From NCBI RefSeq assembly GCF_027587195.1, contig NZ_JAPDDP010000002.1, forward strand, positions 124,001 to 188,000: 64,000 nucleotides of DNA. Direction: 5' to 3'. Numbering within the stretch: position 1 is the first letter of the stretch; every line of letters begins with the position of its first letter. The notes below the pieces were generated by a model. It searched no databases. It had not been told where the DNA came from and saw only the letters and a program-made list of their open reading frames with translations. Source of the DNA: Solirubrobacter phytolaccae (GTDB lineage Bacteria; Actinomycetota; Thermoleophilia; Solirubrobacterales; Solirubrobacteraceae). This document shows positions 50,722 through 60,792 of this stretch, piece after piece. The position numbers were made by a program, and so were the translations under genes.

Positions 50722-51287
50722 ACGGCGGCCGGTTCGCGGACGACGTCGCCGCCTCCAGCTCCCGCCGTGGCTTCTTGGCCCGCGTCGGCGCCGCCGCGAT
50801 GGGGGTCGCCGGCGTCAAGACGGTCGGCAGCCTCGTCGCCCCCGGGGAGGCCGAGGCGTACCACTTCTGCGGGCACATCTACACGACGGACTCCTGCCCG
50901 CACCCGACCGGCCTGCCGCGGATCGACAGCAAAGGCTTCCCGATCCGCGCGAAGAACGGCCGGCCCGTCGACGACCTCGGCCGCTACGTCGACGCCACCG
51001 GCCTGCCCCTCGACGACGACGGCGCGCCGCTGACGGACGCCGACGGCGCCCGCCTGCCCGCCGCGACGCGCACCGCGGTCTGCACGGCCACCGCCGACGT
51101 ATACGGCTTCAAGCCCTACGTCGACGGTGCCTGGTACCGCTGCTGCGGCGGCAAGGTCCGCAAGCTCGTCGACTGCTGCGGCGCGGTCCGCAACCGCATC
51201 AACGGCGACAAAGCGCTCACGGGCTACTGCTACAAGGGCCGCAAGGTCTTCTGCGTCATGTACTACGACACCAAGGTCAAGTGCTGA
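50718..51287 (+). CDS. Tat-exported cysteine-rich protein, MauA (methylamine dehydrogenase light chain)-like
   Basis: 189 residues from GTG 50718, coupled to the MauE-type gene. The twin-arginine signal SSRRGFLARVGAAAMGVAG is followed by a mature part with ten cysteines (HFCGHIYTTDSC, AVCTAT, WYRCCGGK, VDCCGA, GYCYKG, VFCVMYY, KVKC). The length, Tat signal, dense disulfides and MauE-type neighbour fit the methylamine dehydrogenase light-chain family. However, only one Trp is visible, so a tryptophan tryptophylquinone cofactor cannot form in the usual way, and no obvious heavy-chain MauB gene adjoins it. The 3' end is the attachment site of the mobile element: the last codons (DTKVKC) belong to the left repeat. 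Confidence 0.65.
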   Translation: MNGGRFADDVAASSSRRGFLARVGAAAMGVAGVKTVGSLVAPGEAEAYHFCGHIYTTDSCPHPTGLPRIDSKGFPIRAKNGRPVDDLGRYVDATGLPLDDDGAPLTDADGARLPAATRTAVCTATADVYGFKPYVDGAWYRCCGGKVRKLVDCCGAVRNRINGDKALTGYCYKGRKVFCVMYYDTKVKC

Positions 51288-52951
51288 TTGTCGGGCTGCC
51301 GCTGAAGCGGCCCGAACGCGAGCGCGACGCGGCGTAGGAACGCGTCCGCTTCCCCCGCCTCCAGCGGGTCCGCGATCATGTCCAGCCGCACGGCGGGGAC
51401 GACGAGGAGGTCACCTTCGAGCCCAGCCGCGAGGCCCGGCGCGAATCCACGAGGCTGCTCCGCGCGCTCGATCTGGTCCTCGTAGAGCTGCTCGGGGACG
51501 ACGTGCACCTTCTCGAAGACCGCGGCCATCGCCGCTCGGAGCGCCTGGACGTCATCGCCGGCCGACCCGATCTGACCCGCGATGGCCGCGCGGAGTTCGG
51601 CGAGCCTGCGCAGCCCCTCGTGCTCGGCGTCGAGCCCGCCCAGCATCGCGGCGACCTCATCGGCGCGGGCGTGGAGCCGGTCGCGCTCGGCGTCGGCGGC
51701 CGAGAGCTCGTCGCGGAACTTGGCCGTCAGCCTCCCGTAGTCGGCGGCGTCGAGAGCGCCGCTGGCGTAGTCGCGGTCGAACCGATCGAGCGCGGACGCG
51801 GCGTCCGCCGCCTCACGGGCGGCGCGGGCGGCCTGTTCGCGCGCCGTGCCTTCGCGGCCCGCGAGCTGCTCAGCCAGCCGCTCGCGCGTTCCGTCGACGT
51901 CGAGTGCCCACCGCTCGAAGAGGCGCAGGGCGGGTACCTCGACTTCGGCGCGCCTGAGGATGGGCATCTGGCAGCCCTTCTTCCCGACCTGCTTGGCGGT
52001 CTTGCACTGGTAGGTCTCGCGACCGTTGCGTTCCGTGCGCGGCAGGAACGCCTGGCCACAGATGTCGCAGACCAGCATCCCGCGCACGAAGACGTGCCGG
52101 GCCGGAAGTCGCCCTCCACCCTTCGGAGTCCACTTGCGCGAGTTCTCGGCAATCCGCTGCGCAGCCTCCCAGATGGCCTCCTCGACGATCGCCGGATGCT
52201 CGCCGCGGACCCAGTCATCTCCGCGCCGGAAGTACCCGAGCACGCTCCGGCCGGTGATGACCTTCCGGATCAGCGCGACGGTCCACATCGAGCCGCGCCG
52301 CGGGCGAACGCCGTCGAGCGTCAGCGCCGCGAGCACCGCGTTGTACGCCGACGTCTGCAGGTAGATGTCGAACATCCGACGCGCCACGGGCGCCTCCACC
52401 GGGTCGGGTTCCCAGTGGCCGTCATCCCGCTTGCGGAAGCCGTAGGCGGGCACGCCCCACGGGCCTTTCGTCGGGTCGCGGTGACGGATGCCCCGCCGCA
52501 CGTTCGCGGACAGGTCGTCGGCGTACTTGCTCGCCTGCTTGCTCGCGAACCCGATCAGCATCTCGTTGGTGATGAACTCGTCGTCCTCGACGGTGCGGAG
52601 TGTGACGCCGACCGCGCGCAGGTCGTAGAACAGCTTTCCGAGCGCGCGGGCCTCTCCAGGCTTGCCGCTGCCGCGGGCGAAGCGAGAGCTGATCGACGCC
52701 CAGAGCTCGGCTCGTCCGTGCCGTGCGGCGGCGCTCTCGGCCGCCTCGATGGCACGCCGCAGGTCTGGCCCCCGGTCGCCCTTGGACCCCGACGCGTGAT
52801 CGATGAAAGGCCCCGCGCACTCGAAGCGCTCCTGGTCGCTCTCAAGGCGTGCGCGAACGTCTTTCACCTGGTCACCGGTGCTGTCCTTGCCGGGCTCCTC
52901 CGCCTTGGAGCGCGCCGCATAGATCACGACGGGGATGGTGGGCGCGCTCAT
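51263..52951 (-). CDS. Large serine integrase
   Basis: 562 residues. The N-terminal resolvase domain has the catalytic Ser in VVIYAARSKAEEP (Ser15) and the Arg-containing DLRRAIEAAES and ISSRFARGSG blocks. A recombinase domain follows (WGVPAYGFRKRDDGHW ... VRRGIRHRDPTKG), then a zinc-ribbon (CDICGQAFLPRTERNGRETY, KGC), a long coiled coil from about residue 365 (EQAARAAREAADAASALDRF) and a C-terminal tail. This is the phiC31/Bxb1-type architecture. It integrates and excises the element between short att sites. The 223-bp region upstream (52952-53174) has no gene and probably holds its promoter; CCTATAGG near 53077 is a candidate element there. Confidence 0.95.
   Translation of the reverse strand: MSAPTIPVVIYAARSKAEEPGKDSTGDQVKDVRARLESDQERFECAGPFIDHASGSKGDRGPDLRRAIEAAESAAARHGRAELWASISSRFARGSGKPGEARALGKLFYDLRAVGVTLRTVEDDEFITNEMLIGFASKQASKYADDLSANVRRGIRHRDPTKGPWGVPAYGFRKRDDGHWEPDPVEAPVARRMFDIYLQTSAYNAVLAALTLDGVRPRRGSMWTVALIRKVITGRSVLGYFRRGDDWVRGEHPAIVEEAIWEAAQRIAENSRKWTPKGGGRLPARHVFVRGMLVCDICGQAFLPRTERNGRETYQCKTAKQVGKKGCQMPILRRAEVEVPALRLFERWALDVDGTRERLAEQLAGREGTAREQAARAAREAADAASALDRFDRDYASGALDAADYGRLTAKFRDELSAADAERDRLHARADEVAAMLGGLDAEHEGLRRLAELRAAIAGQIGSAGDDVQALRAAMAAVFEKVHVVPEQLYEDQIERAEQPRGFAPGLAAGLEGDLLVVPAVRLDMIADPLEAGEADAFLRRVALAFGPLQRQPDNQHLTLVS
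51265..51280. repeat. Left attachment site (attL core)
   Basis: ACGACACCAAGGTCAA, identical to 60767-60782. Similarity continues with one substitution and one deleted base into TGATTG. The core lies in the last codons of the MauA-like gene (DTKVKC), and the integrase stop is 2 bp from it. The repeat keeps the host gene's reading frame, so the gene is not broken. Confidence 0.85.
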
Positions 52952-53174
52952 AGCTCCCGTTCCCCGACGGGCGAAACGGCGGTACGATTCGTGGTGAGCA
53001 TCGAGCCTCCTTACAGGCTTTCTCGGTGTTCCGGCCCGGGGACGTGTGACGACGTCACTCGGGCCTTTCTACGCCTATAGGCTGTCGTGGCCGGTAGCCA
53101 TTCGGCAACGCTGCTGGCGGATCGCGCCTAAACGGTCGGTCGCCCAGCGCGCACCGTGGCTAGTCCTCACGCCG

Positions 53175-53384
53175 CTACGTGAGGATGGACCAGCCGCCCA
53201 TGGCCTCGTCGGCGCGGCGAGCGCCATCGAGCTCGCGCAGGGCGTCAGCGACTTCGCCGGGGCGCAGCTCGCCGCCGAGGCCTTCGGAGATCTCCTCGGG
53301 CTGCCAGTTGCGCCCGCCGTTCGCCGCGAGGAAGTCGTAGACCGTCCGCGCGTCGTCGCTGAGGTTGTCCAGTGGTTCTTGCAC
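53175..53384 (-). CDS. Small winged-helix-like protein
   Basis: 69 residues from GTG 53384. The sequence (LSDDARTVYDFLAANGGRNW, EEISEGLGGELRPGEVADAL) has the shape of a compact helix-turn-helix with a wing ending in WSIL. The location next to the integrase suggests a regulator or a recombination directionality factor, but this is inference. It has high G/C at third codon positions. Confidence 0.55.
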   Translation of the reverse strand: MQEPLDNLSDDARTVYDFLAANGGRNWQPEEISEGLGGELRPGEVADALRELDGARRADEAMGGWSILT

Positions 53385-53491
53385 AGTCAGGGACCGTACA
53401 GCGCGGGGCGGGCGCTAGGCAAGACTGCCGCGAGCCGATGCCCGGCCTTCGTCGGAGGACTCTGCGGCCGCATGGGCCGGGAACGCGGCGC

Positions 53492-53902
53492 TCAGCGCTT
53501 GGCGAGCTGGAGCGACCAGGCGGCGAGGATCGCGGCGGCGAAGCGGCCCTGGGTCCAGGCGCGCGACGCGGTGTCCTGGGGGATCTGCGAGACGAGCGGG
53601 CGCAGCGGCGCGACGGCCGAGCGGCCGCCCTCGCCCTTGGCCACGTCCAGCAGCGCCTTCGGGCTGGAGAAGCCCGCCAGCTTGGCGATCGTCTTCGGAG
53701 TGGGCTCCTCGCCCTGATCCTTGAGCAGCGTCGTGACGAGGTCGCGGACGAGCACGTGCTGCGCCGGTCCCTCGCCGTGCGACTTGCCGCGGATCTCCTT
53801 CGACAGCTTGACGGCGGCGCGGACGTCGTCGCTGTACTTGGTGGCCGCGTGCTTCGGCTTGGCGGCGCGCTTCTTGGCGGGGGCGGCGGTGGGTTCGCTC
53901 AT
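53492..53902 (-). CDS. Hypothetical protein with Lys/Ala-rich N-terminus
   Basis: 136 residues from ATG 53902 (MSEPTAAPAKKRAAKPKHAA). The N-terminus is basic and disordered, the rest helical (VLVRDLVTTLLKDQGEEPTP, TIAKLAGFSSPKALLDVAKG), with a T-x-x-x-L-A-G-F-x-S-P-x-A helix-turn-helix-like segment. It could bind DNA. No close family is recognised. Confidence 0.6.
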   Translation of the reverse strand: MSEPTAAPAKKRAAKPKHAATKYSDDVRAAVKLSKEIRGKSHGEGPAQHVLVRDLVTTLLKDQGEEPTPKTIAKLAGFSSPKALLDVAKGEGGRSAVAPLRPLVSQIPQDTASRAWTQGRFAAAILAAWSLQLAKR

Positions 53903-53967
53903 GCCGCTGAAGCTGTCGTGTCGGGCTCCGACTGCCAAGGCCGTCAGGTCGTGGCGACTACCGCGGG

Positions 53968-54267
53968 TCAGGCAACCATGCGCAGCAGGCCGGAGCCGCG
54001 CCCGATCGTGGCGAAGTCGTCGACCGGCCCGTTCAGCATCGGCGCGAGCCGGGCGACTGCGAGGACGTGACGCCGGGCCGGGAGCCGGTGGAAGGCCTCT
54101 CGCCAGTCGCGCTCCGTGGCGTGCAGCGCCTCGACCCAGTCGCGCAGCTCCTTGCCGTCCTCGACGAGGGCGACGTCGGCCAGCGCGCGCTCCCAGGCGG
54201 CGTCGAAGCGAGCGCCCGCGGCGCGCTCAGCGGCGAGTCGTTCGCGGACGATCTCTGCGGTGCTCAT
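53968..54267 (-). CDS. Small helical hypothetical protein
   Basis: 99 residues from ATG 54267 (MSTAEIVRERLAAERAAGAR). Predominantly helical with repeated Arg/Glu/Ala (WERALADVALVEDGKELRDW, ALHATERDWREAFHRLPARR). There is no motif. Like several genes in the element it is short and charged, resembling phage scaffolding or accessory proteins, but this is not shown. It lies 201 bp from the next gene. Confidence 0.5.
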   Translation of the reverse strand: MSTAEIVRERLAAERAAGARFDAAWERALADVALVEDGKELRDWVEALHATERDWREAFHRLPARRHVLAVARLAPMLNGPVDDFATIGRGSGLLRMVA

Positions 54268-54302
54268 GCGTTGAGCGTGTCGTGGCCGCACGACGGCAGC
54301 GC

Positions 54303-54353
54303 GGAGAGGCGGGCCAGCCGGGGAAAGGAATGAAACCCGGCCAGCCCGTCTCC
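54303..54353. repeat. Imperfect inverted repeat inside the element
   Basis: GGAGA, GGGC and GCCGGG (54303-54322) pair in order with CCCGGC, GCCC and TCTCC (54336-54353) around a 13-base loop containing AAAGGAATG. It lies in the gap 54268-54469, which otherwise shows no gene. It may be a terminator or phage regulatory hairpin. Confidence 0.45.
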
Positions 54354-54469
54354 GAACTGCTCCCCGGCGGCGAGTGAGCTGCGCCGCCGGGGCCCTGCGC
54401 CGGACCCGACGACGAGGAGGATGAGGGTCCGGTTCCCGCGGGGCGAGGATCAGGCGCCCCGAGGCTTGG

Positions 54470-54754
54470 TCAGTCCTGGTGCGCCGCGTCGTGCTCCCGG
54501 AGGCGGCGACGGCGGTCGACGAGCCTTCCGCCCTGCTCGAGTCCGCGCGAGGCCAGATGCTCGTTGAGCTCCGGGCCCTCCATCGCGTCGAACACGTCCG
54601 TCGCTGGCGCGCTGGGCGCGGGCTCGTCGGCGGCCAGCGCGTCGGCGTCGACCTGCCAGTTGTCGGGGACGGGGTCGCCCGCGAAGACGAGCCGGCGGAC
54701 TTCGGCGCCGTTCACGTCCTCGGCGGCGGTGGTGTCGATGGCCGCGACCCTCAT
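54470..54754 (-). CDS. Small phage protein with SAP/HeH-like C-terminus
   Basis: 94 residues from ATG 54754 (MRVAAIDTTAAEDVNGAEVR), starting at the last base of the capsid gene's stop. The N-terminal part is beta-rich, and the last 35 residues (EGPELNEHLASRGLEQGGRL, VDRRRRLREHDA) have the two-helix layout of SAP/HeH motifs: L-x-x-x-L-x-x-R-G-L-x-x-G-x-x-x-x-L. Proteins of this type often follow major capsid genes in phages. Coupling to the capsid gene supports a head-associated role. Confidence 0.6.
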   Translation of the reverse strand: MRVAAIDTTAAEDVNGAEVRRLVFAGDPVPDNWQVDADALAADEPAPSAPATDVFDAMEGPELNEHLASRGLEQGGRLVDRRRRLREHDAAHQD

Positions 54755-56031
54755 CACGGCGCCTTGAACCGCACGACGGCGAACGCGGCGGGCTCCCAGA
54801 CCGACAGCGCGAACCGGCCCTCGCCGAGCAGCGTGACGCGGTTGCGGACGAAGTCGTCCTGGTCGGAGTCCGAGGCGAGCACCTGCACGCCCTCGCGGAC
54901 CCAGACCGTCGCGCCGCGGGCGGCGTCACCGACGAGCGCCGAGCCCGACGCCACGCCCGTGACCGGCAGCGCCGGGGTGTTCCACAGGCGCTCGGCCGTC
55001 GCCACGAACGGGCCGCCGCTGAAGTACTCGCCCGAGCCGGTGGTCTTGGCCTTGAGCATGTCGGCCCAGTCGCGCGGGTTGAGCGCGATGAAGTCCGGCC
55101 GGGCGTCCTTGAGCATCACGGCGACGAGGCCTTCCAGGGCCTGGTCGGCGGCGAGCTCGGAGGCGTTGTACGCGATCTCCGCGACGCCGGTCGTCTTCAT
55201 GATGCCCTTGATGTTCTCGCCCAGGCCGTCGCCGTTGACGATCTGGCGCTCCAGTCGGCGCAGGACCTTGTAGGTCAGCCGGTTGCGCAGCACCTCCCCG
55301 AGGGCGGCGACGTCGGCGAGCTGCTGGCGCTTGACCTTGACCCACTCGGCGATCGTGCGTGCCCGCGCCTCGGCGTCGAGCAGGTCCACGCCGCCCTGCG
55401 GCTTGACGGCGCCCTCGGCCGTCTCGGCCGCGCCGACGTCGAGCTCCCCGGTCTCCTGGAGGTACTCGATCATGTTGCCGTCCATCGGGGCGGACGGGAA
55501 CAGGTCCAGCAGCGTCAGCGGGCGGCGCATCTGCTCCCGGACGCCGAGGTGACGGCCGTGCCGGCCGCCGTCGCCGACCTCCGCGATGCCGGGCGTCGCG
55601 GCCATCATCCCGCCGCCCGCGTGCTGGCCGAGCATGGCGACGAGGTCGTCGCGGGCCACGCCGATGCCCAGGCGCATCCCGTTGCCGATGGGCGCCGAGC
55701 TCGACGCCGTGGCCTCCAGGACCTCCAGCGTCCGCGGGTCGTTGAGGAAGCTCTCGCCCGAGAACGAGCGGGCGACGCCGCCGACCTGCTCCAGCAGGAA
55801 CCGCTCCTCGTCCTCGATCATCTCGACCTCGGCGTCGGCCGAGCTGAACTTCGCTCCCGCCCGCTGCATCCGCTTGAACTCGGGCCAGTCCGTCACCGGC
55901 CCGTCGTGGCTCGCAGCCTCGAAATCGGCCTTTGCCTCGTCGCGCTCCTCGCGGGCGTCCTTGCGGGCCGTCCGCGCCGCCGCCGCGCGCTGCCGGACAT
56001 CAGTCATCCGGTCTCGCATCGTGCTCGTCAT
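54754..56031 (-). CDS. HK97-fold phage major capsid protein
   Basis: 425 residues from ATG 56031. Residues 1-95 are a charged coiled coil (RQRAAAARTARKDAREERDE ... AEVEMIEDEERFLLEQ), which serves as the internal scaffold (delta domain). From residue 170 the HK97 layout follows: REQMRRPLTLLDLFPSAPMD, MIEYLQETGELDVGAAETAE, VKPQGGVDLLDAEARARTIA, EWVKVKRQQLADVAALGEVL, LERQIVNGDGLGENIKGIMK and the C-terminal ATVWVREGVQVLASDSDQDD. No prohead protease is encoded next to it, yet the scaffold is fused, so a helper protease or a protease-free assembly is implied. This is the strongest phage marker in the element. Confidence 0.9.
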   Translation of the reverse strand: MTSTMRDRMTDVRQRAAAARTARKDAREERDEAKADFEAASHDGPVTDWPEFKRMQRAGAKFSSADAEVEMIEDEERFLLEQVGGVARSFSGESFLNDPRTLEVLEATASSSAPIGNGMRLGIGVARDDLVAMLGQHAGGGMMAATPGIAEVGDGGRHGRHLGVREQMRRPLTLLDLFPSAPMDGNMIEYLQETGELDVGAAETAEGAVKPQGGVDLLDAEARARTIAEWVKVKRQQLADVAALGEVLRNRLTYKVLRRLERQIVNGDGLGENIKGIMKTTGVAEIAYNASELAADQALEGLVAVMLKDARPDFIALNPRDWADMLKAKTTGSGEYFSGGPFVATAERLWNTPALPVTGVASGSALVGDAARGATVWVREGVQVLASDSDQDDFVRNRVTLLGEGRFALSVWEPAAFAVVRFKAP

Positions 56032-56156
56032 CCGGGTCCTCCTCGTACTGCCCTGCGCTTGACTCCGGATGTCGATCGCTCATATAACCGAGCCCGGACC
56101 TTGCCTTCGATGCTGTCGTCCAAAACCGGCGGAACGAACGCGGCGGCCCCGCGGGG

Positions 56157-56792
56157 CTACTGCTTGATGACGAAGTTGAGGACCTGGAAGGGCGGCATGT
56201 TGTTGTGCGGCTGGTCGCCGCCGGTGGTCCACAGGTCGGTCGCGGTCGGGAAGTACGGCACCACGTGGCTCGTGCCGCTGCCGCCCGAGGCGTTCACGCC
56301 CGTCTGAAGCACGCCGCCGAGGCCCGACGCGGCGCGCGGCGCTGCGGCGGGCAGCTCAAGCGCCGTCAGCGTGTGCTTCTGCGCGCCGCCCGCGCTGCCG
56401 AGCGCGTCGTTCGCGTCCTGGCGGTTCGCCGAGCCGTCGACGCCCACGGGCACGCGGCCGCGGAGGTCGGGCAGGTTGAACGTGCTGAAGCCGTTGCCCG
56501 CGCCGTACGCCGTGCCGATGGCGGCGAAGAGGGCCGCGTACGTCGTGCGGCTCACGGCCGCGCCGTCGCACAGGAGCCATCCGGTCGGCGCCTCGGATCG
56601 GGCGGTGGCGATCACCGAGCCTGCGGGCGTGGCGGCGGCGACGGCGGCCGTCGTTGCGGCGTCGATGGCGGCCTTGACCATCGAGTCGACCCTGTCCGAG
56701 ATCGCGTTGACCTGGGGCGCGAAGTCGGCGTCGTCCGTGTTGTCGTAGCGCGGGATTCCGAAGTTCGGAGTGGTGGCGGGCGTGCCGGGCAT
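56157..56792 (-). CDS. Phage tail-collar-domain protein
   Basis: 211 residues from ATG 56792; AAAGGA 6 bp upstream fixes the start. Residues 1-75 (TPNFGIPRYDNTDDADFAPQ, ISDRVDSMVKAAIDAATTAA) are a short coiled stem. Residues 78-205 form a tail-collar/microcystin-dependent-protein domain: GWLLCDGAAVSRTTYAALFA, GTAYGAGNGFSTFNLPDLRG, VPVGVDGSANRQDA and the closing NNMPPFQVLNFVIKQ. Such proteins are receptor-binding or collar fibres. No other tail gene is seen nearby. Confidence 0.88.
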   Translation of the reverse strand: MPGTPATTPNFGIPRYDNTDDADFAPQVNAISDRVDSMVKAAIDAATTAAVAAATPAGSVIATARSEAPTGWLLCDGAAVSRTTYAALFAAIGTAYGAGNGFSTFNLPDLRGRVPVGVDGSANRQDANDALGSAGGAQKHTLTALELPAAAPRAASGLGGVLQTGVNASGGSGTSHVVPYFPTATDLWTTGGDQPHNNMPPFQVLNFVIKQ

Positions 56793-56933
56793 GCGGTTCC
56801 TTTCGAGGGCTCGTCGTCGCAACGCACGTTGTCGTCACGAACCGGCGGAACCGCCTGGCCTGGCAGAGACGCCCGGGCTACCGCTGGCCCTCGCGGCGCC
56901 CCTCCTCGGCCCGAGGCTCGCCCGCTGCGCCCG

Positions 56934-57212
56934 TCAGCTGCCCGTGGCCCTCAGCTGGCGCCCGACCGGCCGCCCGCCGCGCCTGAGCCGCGCCGCCTCC
57001 CACTCGTCCATGTCCGCGAAGGGGTCGGGCGGGAGCCCGGCGAACTCGTCGGCCACTGCGCCGTCCTTCGCGAACGCGTCCATGCCGTTCAGTCGGCCGA
57101 GCGCGCGGGCGGCGCTCGCCTTCGCCTCCAACGCCTTCCCCGAGTTGCTGCCGTCGGACGCCAGCACGGCCCGCAGCGCCTCGCGGATCAGGTCCTCGTC
57201 GTCGGCCGCCAT
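56934..57212 (-). CDS. Small phage-type protein of unknown function
   Basis: 92 residues from ATG 57212 (ATG 57221 is an alternative). It is helical and charged (DEDLIREALRAVLASDGSNS, KALEAKASAARALGRLNGMD) with a tail DPFADMDEWEAARLRRGGRP. It faintly resembles small DNA-packaging accessory proteins, but I would not name it. An eight-G run (57243-57250) lies just upstream, where a frameshift would change the reading frame of any longer protein. Confidence 0.55.
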   Translation of the reverse strand: MAADDEDLIREALRAVLASDGSNSGKALEAKASAARALGRLNGMDAFAKDGAVADEFAGLPPDPFADMDEWEAARLRRGGRPVGRQLRATGS

Positions 57213-57449
57213 GCGGCGCATCCTGGCGTCAGCCCCGGACGCGGGGGGGGAATCCGCGGTGTTCTTCCTCGGAAGCGGCGGGAGTCGCACTTGGGCCGAT
57301 CTCGTTTCATCCTCAGGCCGCCCCCCTGGCGCCGTGACGCCGCGCGGGCGCTGCGGAGCGCTCCGGCCTTGACACGGGCTCGGATCGTCGTACTTGTCCG
57401 TCTCGCTGGACCGAAGTTGCCGAGCCCCAGCCGGGCTCGCGCGGTATCC

Positions 57450-57560
57450 ATGTCGACCGAGGAGCCGATCATCGAACTGATCGCCGTCCTGGCCGTCCTC
57501 GCCCTCGTGCTGCAACTCGGCGCGACGGTGCTTGCGCTGCTCACCTACCTGCGCAAGTAG
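57450..57560 (+). CDS. 36-residue single-pass membrane protein
   Basis: The sequence begins MSTEEPIIELIAVLAVLALV and ends LALLTYLRK: one membrane helix of about 25 residues with a basic end. Third codon positions are mostly G/C. Small holin-like or pinholin-like proteins occur in phages, but a lysis role is speculative. No strong ribosome binding site is visible. It lies on the opposite strand from the capsid genes, directly before a hairpin. Confidence 0.5.
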   Translation: MSTEEPIIELIAVLAVLALVLQLGATVLALLTYLRK

Positions 57561-57585
57561 CGGCGCGTTTAGCCCCGGTTCTCCA

Positions 57586-57617
57586 GGGAGCCTCGCCCGC
57601 GAGCGGGTGGGGCTCCC
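57586..57617. terminator. Strong hairpin between the phage genes and the two-gene cassette
   Basis: GGGAGCC (57586-57592) pairs with GGCTCCC (57611-57617) and CCCGC (57596-57600) with GCGGG (57603-57607). There is no T tract. It sits 26 bp after the 36-residue gene and about 77 bp before the cassette start, and probably insulates the two units. Confidence 0.6.
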
Positions 57618-57652
57618 CGCTCAGGGGACGGCGCGTGCGGCGAGAGAACTCC

Positions 57653-57680
57653 CTTGTTCCGCCGCTGGCGCTTCTATTCT
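57653..57680 (+). promoter_or_regulatory. Candidate promoter of the two-gene cassette
   Basis: TTGTTC and TATTCT with about 15 bp between, ending roughly 14 bp before the ATG at 57694. The surrounding stretch is relatively AT-rich for this genome. Spacing is slightly short for a sigma70-type promoter, so this is tentative. Confidence 0.35.
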
Positions 57681-57693
57681 GACCATTCAAGCA

Positions 57694-58287
57694 ATGAATG
57701 ACACGAACTCCTCCAGCGGCTACAAGCTAACGCTCGTGGGCGACGGGATCACGGTCGAACGGGATCTCGACGGCGAGACCGCCATGAACGTCATGTCGAT
57801 CCTCTTCGGCGGGAAGGCGCCGGAGATCGCTCAACCATCGTCGACGGGCTCGACCAGCAAGCCCAAGGCTCCGGCCCGCCGGCGGGCTCGCACGACGGGC
57901 GAGAGCGACGACGGCAAGCCGAAGAAGAAGCGCCGCAGCGGACTCCCTGGCGTGGTCAAGGATCTGAGCATGCGCCCTGCCGGGAAGAAGTCATTCGCGG
58001 ACTTCATCGAGGAGAAGAAGCCTTCGACACACCAGCAGAAGCAGGCGGCCATCCTCTACTGGCTGAAGCATGAGGCTGGCCTCGACAGCGGTGTCACAGT
58101 GGACCACGTAAACACGTGTTACCTGGAGGCGAACTGGCCGCGCCCGGCGCAGATTCCCAACGCCTTGAGCGTCACGGCGTACAAGAAGGGCTGGATCGAC
58201 CCGAGTGACTTCGACGACATCAAGTTGACGACGCGCGGCGAGGACATGGTTCAGCACGATCTGCCGCCGCAGCCGAAGAAGAAGTAG
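57694..58287 (+). CDS. Cassette protein A: unknown, with basic linker and winged-helix-like C-terminus
   Basis: 197 residues from ATG 57694. Residues 8-42 form a beta-alpha unit (YKLTLVGDGITVERDLDGET, AMNVMSILFGG). A Lys/Arg-rich linker follows (KAPARRRARTTGESDDGKPK, KKRRSGLPG). Residues 105-190 look like a winged helix (SFADFIEEKKPSTHQQKQAA, ILYWLKHEAGLDSGVTVDHV, SVTAYKKGWIDPSDFDDIKL, TTRGEDMVQHDLP). This C-terminal shape, K-P-x-T-x-x-x-K ... G-W-I-D, recurs in small proteins of mobile elements. The gene stops 1 bp before the next gene starts. It uses more A/T-ending codons than its neighbours. Confidence 0.75.
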   Translation: MNDTNSSSGYKLTLVGDGITVERDLDGETAMNVMSILFGGKAPEIAQPSSTGSTSKPKAPARRRARTTGESDDGKPKKKRRSGLPGVVKDLSMRPAGKKSFADFIEEKKPSTHQQKQAAILYWLKHEAGLDSGVTVDHVNTCYLEANWPRPAQIPNALSVTAYKKGWIDPSDFDDIKLTTRGEDMVQHDLPPQPKKK

Positions 58288-58288
58288 C

Positions 58289-59077
58289 TTGGCCGACCCG
58301 CCGCCCCTGCTCCCCGAGGATGTCTTCTCGGACCTGCCCGACAGGTTGCGCGAGGAGCTCCTCGACTCCTTCGGCAAGATCGTCCAGAACTTCAGCGAGC
58401 ATCGCTGGGAGCCCGCCGAGCTCAACGGCGGGAAGCTGTGTGAGGTCGTCTACTCCATCGCGAAAGGGATGATCGACGGGCAGTACCCGGCAAGCGCGTC
58501 GAAGCCCAGAAACATGGTGCAGGCCTGCCAGCAGCTCGAGCAGTCCTCCGGCAGTAGCGCGCCGCGTTCCGTACGAATCCAGATTCCGCGGATGCTCGTC
58601 GCCCTATACGAAGTCCGCAACAACCGGAACGTCGGGCATGTCGGCGGCGAGGTGGACCCGAGCCATATGGACGCCGTTTGCGTCCTGCAGATGTCCAAGT
58701 GGATCGTCGCGGAGTTGATCCGCGTGCTCCATCACCGACCCGTCGAGGAAGCGTCCGCCTTGGTGGACGCGCTCGTCGAGCGGGAGACACCAATCGTGTG
58801 GAAGGTCGGAGGCAAGAAGCGCGTCCTCGACACCAAGCTGTCGATGAAGGACAAGGCGCTGGTCCTGCTGCATGCGACCTCCGGCACCGTGACGGAGGCC
58901 GAACTCGTCGCGTGGGTCGAGCACTCCAACGCGAGCGTGTTCCGACGCGATGTCCTACGGCGCGCGCACAAGGAGAAGCTGATCGAGTACGACGCCGGCT
59001 CGCGGACGGTGGACATCTCGCCGCTTGGAGTCGAGCACGCCGAGCGATTGCTCGCTGCAAGGAACGCCGCCGGCTAG
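58289..59077 (+). CDS. Cassette protein B: HEPN-like motif protein with winged-helix tail
   Basis: 262 residues from TTG 58289. Residues 15-145 are all helical. At 110-117 they contain RNNRNVGH, an R-x6-H within an R-N context, preceded by QIPRMLVALYEV and followed by GGEVDPSHMDAV, as in HEPN/Abi_C-type abortive-infection ribonucleases. Residues 178-255 form a winged helix (TEAELVAWVEHSNASVFRRD, VLRRAHKEKLIEYDAGSR). The one-base gap to protein A implies coupled expression. A defence or helper-interference role is inferred from the motif and the location in a mobile element. Whether it cuts RNA is unknown. Confidence 0.65.
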   Translation: MADPPPLLPEDVFSDLPDRLREELLDSFGKIVQNFSEHRWEPAELNGGKLCEVVYSIAKGMIDGQYPASASKPRNMVQACQQLEQSSGSSAPRSVRIQIPRMLVALYEVRNNRNVGHVGGEVDPSHMDAVCVLQMSKWIVAELIRVLHHRPVEEASALVDALVERETPIVWKVGGKKRVLDTKLSMKDKALVLLHATSGTVTEAELVAWVEHSNASVFRRDVLRRAHKEKLIEYDAGSRTVDISPLGVEHAERLLAARNAAG

Positions 59078-59090
59078 ACGACGGCCCGAC

Positions 59091-59363
59091 TCAACCCAGG
59101 AGCGCTGCGGCGACGACCTCACGCTCGATCCGCCCGCGGTCGGCGGCGGGCCGGGCCGAAGTCGGCGGCGCGACGCACTCGCCGCAGGAGGCAGCGAGGT
59201 CGTCCGTCGTCCGGACGGGCTGGCGCACGTCGACTACCTTCGTCACGGGCGCGCCGCATCGGCAGGTCCCGTCCCGGTACAGCACGAACCGCTCGATGCG
59301 CGCGATCTCCGCCGCGATCCGATTGTCCTCGTCCCGGTCGCCCGTCATCCAGTCCGCGTTCAC
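59091..59363 (-). CDS. Small zinc-ribbon-like protein
   Basis: 90 residues from GTG 59363. Cys pairs in GTCRCGAPV and ASCGECVAPP form a C-x-C ... C-x-x-C zinc-ribbon-like set. The N-terminus is acidic and helical (WMTGDRDEDNRIAAEIARIE). Likely a small DNA- or protein-binding protein of the element. Confidence 0.55.
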   Translation of the reverse strand: MNADWMTGDRDEDNRIAAEIARIERFVLYRDGTCRCGAPVTKVVDVRQPVRTTDDLAASCGECVAPPTSARPAADRGRIEREVVAAALLG

Positions 59364-59401
59364 TTTGGCCTCCGCTTCGTCGTCATGCGCTCAGCCTGTC
59401 G

Positions 59402-59767
59402 TCAAGGCCCGGACAGCTCATCGGGGTCGAGTGTGAGCGCGACGGCGGTGACGAGGTGCCGCCGGGTCTGCGCGGCGAGCTCGGCGGCCAGCACGTCGAG
59501 CGTCCCGCCGGTCGTCGCCGCGACGAGCAGCAGGTCCATCGCGGGCAGGTCCTCCGGAGACTCCATCGCGAGCATGTAGCGCGCCCCGGCGATCGTCTCC
59601 CGCTGCCGCGGCTCAAGGGCAAGGACCGCGTCGACGACCCAGCGCGCGAGCGGCAGCCGGGCGAGATCGGCGTCCGCCTCCGCGGCGATCTCGTCGAGCT
59701 GCCAGACGTCGACGCGCTCTGCGCTCCTGGCGGCTACGTGCATGGCGAGGTCGGTCATGAGGCTCAT
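59402..59767 (-). CDS. Small helical hypothetical protein
   Basis: 121 residues from ATG 59767; ATG 59758 is an alternative. It is helical and acidic (ERVDVWQLDEIAAEADADLA, VVDAVLALEPRQRETIAGAR). The start overlaps the stop of a long frame upstream on the same strand (ATGA), which favours a shared transcript with the replication-like gene. Confidence 0.55.
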   Translation of the reverse strand: MSLMTDLAMHVAARSAERVDVWQLDEIAAEADADLARLPLARWVVDAVLALEPRQRETIAGARYMLAMESPEDLPAMDLLLVAATTGGTLDVLAAELAAQTRRHLVTAVALTLDPDELSGP

Positions 59768-60714
59768 CGGCCCTCCGTGTCTGCTTCGTTGCGGTGCATT
59801 GCCGCCGCTGCCGACGACAGCATCGAGGCGTACCCGACGCCTCTGGAGCCATCGTCATGAGCGAGCACGCCTGTTCCGTCCCCGGCTGCGACGAACACAT
59901 CGCCGTCTTCCCCTACAACCTCACGATCGTCGGCTACTGCGTGACGCACGGGAACCTCCTGCGCAGCCTGGTCGAGAGCTTCAACATGCCCGCCCGCGCC
60001 GCGATCAGCTTCGACGCCCAGCGCGCCCGCTGGGAGAACGAGGCCCGCAACCGGGCCGCCCGGTAGGAACGTCTTGGTGCCGTCGCGTTTGCCGCGCTTC
60101 GGCATTGACCCGGCGTAGCGGATCACGCCTCGCCTCTCCAGCCAGGACAGCGCGCGCCGCGCCTGCGCGTGATGGCGGCAGTGCCCGCGCTGAACCGCCC
60201 AGTTCGACGCGTAGGGAAGAGGCCGGTCGTCGATGCTCGCCAGCCTCAAACCCCAGAGCAGCAGCATCTCCCGGTAGATCACCGCCGCGAGCGGGGGCGC
60301 GTCGCTCGGAAGCGACGGCGCGGCGACCGCGGCGGGCGTGAGCCGTCCCGCTTCGTGCTCCGCGAGCAGGAAGTCGTTCCACTTCTCCGAGCCCTCGCCG
60401 TTCTCCGTGTGCACAGGGGTAGGGGCAGGGGCAGGAAGAGGAGCAGGAGAACCAGCCTCGCTTCGCTCGGGCTGAGCTTCGCCCAGCGCCAGGAGTGCAT
60501 CGGCATCGACAGGAACGCGGTCGTCGTGGTACCAAGCCGCGTAGGCAAAGGACGACTCGGCGCAATCCGGGTTCGGGCACTTGAGCTTCCCGAGACCGTC
60601 CCCGTCGGCCTCCTCGCCGCTCGGCGCACCGACGACCGCGCGGAACCCGCACGCGTGCCGGAACCGCGCGCCGTCGGGTTCCGCGTAGAGATCGACCTTG
60701 GTCGCGCGGGTCAT
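59764..60714 (-). CDS. Replication-initiation-like winged-helix protein
   Basis: 316 residues if read to the stop at 59764. The first 220 residues look coding: a zinc-binding N-terminus (RHACGFRAVVG, KCPNPDCAESS), a Pro/Ala linker (APLPAPAPTPVHTENG) and a winged helix (AAVIYREMLLLWGLRLASID, HHAQARRALSWLERRGVIRY) of the type found in phage or plasmid replication initiators. The last 100 residues have poor third-position G/C and lie opposite the gene at 59856, so the true C-terminus may be near 60060 with the original stop lost. It is the closest thing to a replication gene in the element. Confidence 0.55.
   Translation of the reverse strand: MTRATKVDLYAEPDGARFRHACGFRAVVGAPSGEEADGDGLGKLKCPNPDCAESSFAYAAWYHDDRVPVDADALLALGEAQPERSEAGSPAPLPAPAPTPVHTENGEGSEKWNDFLLAEHEAGRLTPAAVAAPSLPSDAPPLAAVIYREMLLLWGLRLASIDDRPLPYASNWAVQRGHCRHHAQARRALSWLERRGVIRYAGSMPKRGKRDGTKTFLPGGPVAGLVLPAGALGVEADRGAGGHVEALDQAAQEVPVRHAVADDREVVGEDGDVFVAAGDGTGVLAHDDGSRGVGYASMLSSAAAAMHRNEADTEGR
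59856..60066 (+). CDS. Small Cys/His zinc-finger-like protein
   Basis: 69 residues from ATG 59856 (MSEHACSVPGCDEHIAVFPY). Cys and His in CSVPGC, YCVTHGNLL form a possible zinc site. Almost every codon ends in G or C, whereas the antisense frame here does not, so this strand is the likelier coding one. It overlaps the minus-strand gene by 211 bp. Confidence 0.6.
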
Positions 60715-60766
60715 CGCTCGCCTCCCGTACCCTGAAGCTCAATGCGAGCGGGCACGAACAACGGCA

Positions 60767-60782
60767 ACGACACCAAGGTCAA
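60767..60782. repeat. Right attachment site (attR core)
   Basis: Exact copy of the left 16-bp core. It is followed by ATGTGATTGA; read in the host gene's frame this gives DTKVKCD then stop, which matches the last residues of the MauA-like gene plus one Asp. It therefore looks like the original 3' end of the host gene, displaced by the element. Confidence 0.85.
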
Positions 60783-60792
60783 ATGTGATTGA

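Follow-up and report, generated by a model that had tools for sequence, protein, structure and literature searches.

The window analyzed here is the whole stretch of 64,000 nucleotides taken from the 7.7 Mb genome of Solirubrobacter phytolaccae. It contains two small adjacent genes, called A and B in the following, which are carried by a mobile element with these features:

51263..52951, minus strand, serine recombinase (Pfam Recombinase E 1.6e-12, Zn_ribbon_recom; PHROG integrase)
51265..51283, plus strand, left attachment repeat, ACGACACCAAGGTCAAGTG, from the empty-site junction
54754..56031, minus strand, HK97-type major capsid protein (Pfam Phage_capsid E 2.2e-30)
56157..56822, minus strand, tail collar protein (Pfam Collar E 3.5e-24)
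57586..57617 (approximately), plus strand, hairpin upstream of A with a 14-bp stem
57694..58287, plus strand, gene of protein A, open reading frame of 197 aa with its stop at 58287
58289..59077, plus strand, gene of protein B, open reading frame of 262 aa with a TTG start
60767..60785, plus strand, right attachment repeat, ACGACACCAAGGTCAAATG, from the empty-site junction, 18/19 identical to the left copy

The presence of a mobile element had been proposed in a sequence-only reading of the window, and the element is real: it has terminal repeats of 19 nucleotides, and an empty site exists in four congeneric genomes. There the sequence matching window position 51285 runs directly into 60767, with the repeat as the overlap. 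As the left flank joins the right flank in all four genomes, 9.5 kb were inserted at the site (51265-60785). Neither terminase nor portal was recognized among the element proteins scanned, and the element is therefore regarded as a remnant or as satellite-like.

The same reading had described two genes separated by one base, of lower G+C than their surroundings and lying behind a strong hairpin. Both open reading frames are as described, with A ending at 58287 and the TTG of B at 58289. The G+C content of the pair is 0.643 (64%). The element has 0.707 (71%) and the window 0.709, and a value as low as that of the pair occurs in only 0.16% of the window's stretches of the same length. The region 57560-57700 folds better than its shuffles (z -2.9), which agrees with the hairpin. 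The hairpin has no clear U-tract and is absent from the list of the terminator scan; it is probably the end of the preceding small gene. Directly before it, at 57450-57560, we noticed by eye an open reading frame of 36 codons for a peptide with a single predicted membrane-spanning segment.

The pair had not been recognized as a named system, and indeed no library names it: scans of A and B with Pfam, NCBIfam, PADLOC and PHROG gave no credible or usable match, PADLOC left B and its relatives without any match, and a sequence search of the PDB returned none. One PADLOC row that would make A a Cas12f protein (E 0.0028) was rejected, as it is at chance level and covers the basic linker of A. A description of the pair was not found in the open-access literature. 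Because the family is missing from the four curated libraries searched, it is overlooked by automatic annotation.

The domain organization of both proteins in the structure models is as follows:

Protein A, residues ~12-37, small beta-beta-alpha N-terminus (model, low confidence)
Protein A, residues ~41-93, basic disordered linker (model topology, pLDDT)
Protein A, residues ~101-189, C-terminal winged helix (confident in the model; matches with Z up to 8.3)
Protein B, residues ~18-163, N-terminal helical HEPN-like domain with E52 and R110-N111-N112-R113-x3-H117
Protein B, residues ~180-262, C-terminal winged helix (MarR-like, Z ~11)

A basic linker and a winged-helix-like tail had been proposed for A, and the pLDDT and topology of the model together with winged-helix matches of Z up to 8.3 bear this out. 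Members of nucleotidyltransferase families were not matched by A in Pfam or NCBIfam, and A is modeled as a winged helix. For B, the proposal was an R-x6-H motif in an R-N context, typical of HEPN toxins, followed by a winged helix. The winged helix is found in the model as well as in the fold matches, and the motif R110-x6-H117 is present in its R-N context and strongly conserved among relatives.

This conservation was followed in an alignment of 16 B sequences, with identities to the window's B down to 20%. E52, R110, R113, D128, W138, E142 and R145 are invariant, and H117 is kept in 15 of the 16 sequences, the divergent relative L039 being the one that lacks it. With the polar N111 after the arginine, R110-N-x5-H117 falls within the Rx4-6H definition of the HEPN superfamily (PMC3710099); the second conserved acidic residue that is a feature of the superfamily is present as the invariant E52. 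The form Ex3[KR] is found, judging the alignment by eye, in seven of the 16 B relatives and is absent from the window's B. In the structure model of B, helices at 18-36, 47-63, 76-84, 93-111, 124-148 and 152-163 precede the winged helix. The motif sits at the end of helix 93-111 in a loop of pLDDT below 50, and the modeled topology would be compatible with an all-alpha bundle.

A further hint towards a HEPN domain arises from Pfam scans of the B relatives, where the only HEPN-type family that came up was Abi_C, weakly and in two relatives. Its gathering cut-off (PF14355) was not reached: the best E-value of these two relatives was 0.12, and the window's B gave no match. Abi_C, the abortive infection C-terminus, is a HEPN-type domain. 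An alignment of Abi_C proteins taken from public genomes was matched to the N-terminal domain of B by hhalign. The P-values were 4.5e-4 and 1.1e-4 for the two directions of the comparison, and E, R-N and H fell into register. Reversed-profile controls gave 0.5-1.8% probability. The real score was 30.7, and the highest among 300 shuffled profiles, which served as decoys, was 26.3. If the motif is masked the match falls to P 0.018, so much of the signal is the motif itself; the divergent half of the B family alone gives P 0.008 against Abi_C.

The fold search was less favorable. Foldseek of B in PDB and BFVD returned nothing with an E-value below 0.001, the best HEPN row being 2hsb at 0.55, and in a second look at the fold (VIA) the rows were filled by winged helices and thus uninformative for the HEPN part. 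The earlier assignment of B to HEPN is hence sustained by the conserved E, R-N and H, by the helical topology and by the Abi_C profile, but not by a confident HEPN fold match. Profiles and conserved residues are therefore the main basis of the call. On these grounds we consider it highly probable that the N-terminal domain of B is a HEPN domain, and B is probably an effector of the HEPN RNase type.

The weak fold support, together with winged helices in both proteins, could also be read in favor of a regulatory pair: B would be a non-catalytic helical dimer with a winged helix, and the two proteins would control the genes of the element as transcriptional or phage-development regulators. The near-invariance of E, R, R and H down to 20% identity and the in-register match to Abi_C speak against this, as does the finding of the pair outside phage-like elements too. 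We regard such a regulatory role as very improbable and continue with B as a predicted RNase.

Relatives of B were found in Actinomycetota, Chloroflexota, cyanobacteria, on a haloarchaeal plasmid and on one contig of a viral collection. In the phylum of the window B is rare (2 of 396 Actinomycetota genomes); in its class three of 299 genomes carry it, and the Chloroflexota set gave seven strong matches in 301 genomes. Weak cyanobacterial and Chloroflexota rows (E ~3e-4 to 8e-4), which are short matches inside long frames, were left out of this count. Plasmids yielded one B, and the phage and viral collections contain almost no relatives, which argues that the pair is not a common phage gene.

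Whether the pair recurs in mobile elements had been one of the suggested checks. An A-type winged-helix gene adjoins B on its upstream side in 15 of the 16 loci, and the pair is frequently located beside restriction or toxin genes or on mobile elements. The exception is a haloarchaeal plasmid of Natronomonas, where a weak, N-terminal A-like candidate only lies downstream of an intact B, beside an IS. With profiles built with one locus left out at a time and a background of 714 open reading frames, 16 of the 19 A-type proteins come out in first or second place; the A of L006 ranks fourth, and L013c and L037b are not recovered. The highest supposed background row in this test is in fact one more A-type gene, the second one in L035. 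For L039 the assignment as A-type is less secure, and the A-type sequence of L036 is spread over two open reading frames.

The arrangement of the pair recalls a toxin-antitoxin system, in which A, as a DNA-binding antitoxin, would repress the operon and neutralize the HEPN toxin B, with maintenance of the element as the main effect and defence as a secondary one. The order of the genes with A first, their overlap or one-base spacing, the small sizes, the winged helix in A and the mobile contexts all fit this explanation. Several loci do not. At L002:508-1107 A contains two in-frame TAG codons while B is intact, and on the haloarchaeal plasmid an intact B likewise lies beside a defective A. An unneutralized toxin should not be tolerated, and for this reason a broken A next to an intact B counts against an antitoxin; L002 is from a draft genome where an error is possible, and a decayed locus or an inactive B could have the same appearance. 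The reverse case, an open A with one in-frame TAA in B, was observed at L034:9533-10285, again in a draft genome with a possible error. Furthermore, L013, L035 and L037 have more than one A-type gene ahead of B (two or three).

A second peculiarity of A is its modular composition. The A of L002 has a C-terminus of the window's type (39/101 identical, Z ~40) and an N-terminus of the type found in L041 and L008 (Z ~14 and ~12), and L035b is a similar mix of N- and C-termini. The A of L041 resembles that of L008 over both ends (Z ~33), while the B of L041 is 50% identical to the window's B and 23% to the B of L008. These mixes indicate that the C-terminal winged helix of A stays in place as different N-terminal domains are joined to it, and that A genes cross between lineages of B. 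Two A-type relatives carry a zinc-ribbon-like N-terminus (DZR with E 0.00045 in one). Domain exchange in itself would not set A apart from an antitoxin, since antitoxins also exchange domains, for example in the combinatorial toxin-antitoxin network described in PMC10440598.

The neighborhoods of the pair were annotated with Pfam. L008 and L031 have a type I restriction-modification system (HsdR and HsdS) as neighbor, L003 an EcoRI methylase and GmrSD/HNH, and L013 a type ISP methylase and a Cas4-like DUF2779 protein. Further neighbors are AbiEii (L040), a PIN toxin (L041), a ParE-like toxin (L002) and an integrase (L038), and other mobile contexts are the IS on the plasmid and the prophage-like element of the window. 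It is our impression, from the raw occurrences at these loci, that restriction, toxin and mobile-element genes are enriched around the pair. In L013 the DUF2779 protein (L013:8738-10243), which has a weak Cas4-like match, overlaps the end of B by four bases; it is preceded by the type ISP methylase and by three winged-helix genes that are A-type or related. In L040 a second, stand-alone A-like gene is located beside the AbiEii toxin gene ~1 kb upstream of the A-B pair (L040:12059-13680).

The neighboring restriction genes in L008/L031, L003 and L013 raise the possibility that the pair assists or regulates restriction-modification and comes into action as a backup once restriction has failed, in the way PrrC does with its restriction-modification partner. 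Restriction-modification operons house many HEPN families (PMC3710099). The window's pair and most other loci have no restriction-modification genes in the stretch examined, however, and we judge this explanation improbable.

A-type genes were also found together with a different partner. On two haloarchaeal plasmids (L064:3101-5276 and L065:3086-5059), cassettes of overlapping winged-helix genes lie beside a HerA-like ATPase gene. The A-type gene in each was identified by profile (E 5e-13 and 4e-15); it is accompanied by a small winged-helix gene with relatives in L013 and L039 and, in the place of B, by a multi-winged-helix AAA_assoc_C protein in which we noticed no HEPN motif. Pairing of an A-type gene with an AAA_assoc_C protein hints that B is not the sole partner of the A-type family. 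Tentatively, and with some doubt, the A-type winged-helix proteins might be general exchangeable adaptors that mobile conflict systems of different kinds share across bacteria and archaea, with B as one client; in that case A would serve several effectors as a recognition part that can be plugged in. The A-type gene in a cassette with a non-HEPN last gene is also a point against A as an antitoxin. Taken with the broken and the multiple A genes, an antitoxin role for A is weakened, and we consider a toxin-antitoxin system rather unlikely.

The reading we favor, with modest confidence, is that the pair forms a mobile module of the abortive-infection type, in which the predicted HEPN RNase B is held and triggered by its exchangeable winged-helix partner A. 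The winged helix of B would tie B to A, to nucleic acid or to both, and A could act as the adaptor that binds B and keeps it idle. An infection cue might be sensed and reported by A via its exchangeable N-terminal domain and basic linker. Once triggered, B would cut cellular RNA, with tRNA or rRNA as the likely class of target, and this could lead to a growth stop. For A as holder or sensor we count the exchangeable N-termini, the several A genes per B and the broken A beside an intact B in L002. The observed part of this model is supported, namely the conserved pair, the catalytic signature, the winged helices of both proteins, the domain exchange in A and the mobile and defence-related neighborhoods. 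Judging from these sequences the pair is a candidate anti-virus system, with defence as its likely function.

HEPN RNases turn up again and again in immunity, and only for a minority is it understood what keeps the enzyme inactive and what sets it off. A HEPN protein whose small partners are swapped at their N-termini resembles a constant effector equipped with interchangeable recognition parts; if this is true, swapped A proteins predict a changed specificity.

Among the known systems, Abi_C (PF14355) shares with B the R-N-x5-H spacing, the glutamate in an earlier helix, the helical domain and the in-register profile match. The domain is C-terminal in Abi_C proteins, whereas B has it at the N-terminus, ahead of a winged helix. 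HEPN-MNT toxin-antitoxin systems are likewise two-gene mobile HEPN modules, but the partner A is a winged-helix protein without a nucleotidyltransferase match. PrrC, RloC and other HEPN families linked to restriction-modification also lie near restriction systems; they differ from B in carrying an ABC ATPase or other domains (PMC3710099), and the B family is not recognizable in the HEPN table of that article as read here. Tha of S. aureus is a prophage-carried HEPN RNase that shuts down the cell, as is predicted for B, but it is a single protein with an R-x4-H motif and no winged-helix partner (PMC11087260).

By analogy, the closest worked-out system is the type IX retron (retron-Kva2), in which a HEPN RNase and a winged-helix protein are encoded together as in the A-B pair (PMC13405049). 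The HEPN protein of the retron lacks the canonical motif, whereas B has the motif and a winged helix of its own. That the A-B pair is itself a retron is ruled out, since the whole genome has no match to the reverse transcriptase family RVT_1; Rfam families were not found in the window either. In the type IX retron the winged-helix protein and the msDNA, the reverse-transcribed DNA, sequester the HEPN dimer in an inactive state, and the trigger is a phage protein (PMC13405049).
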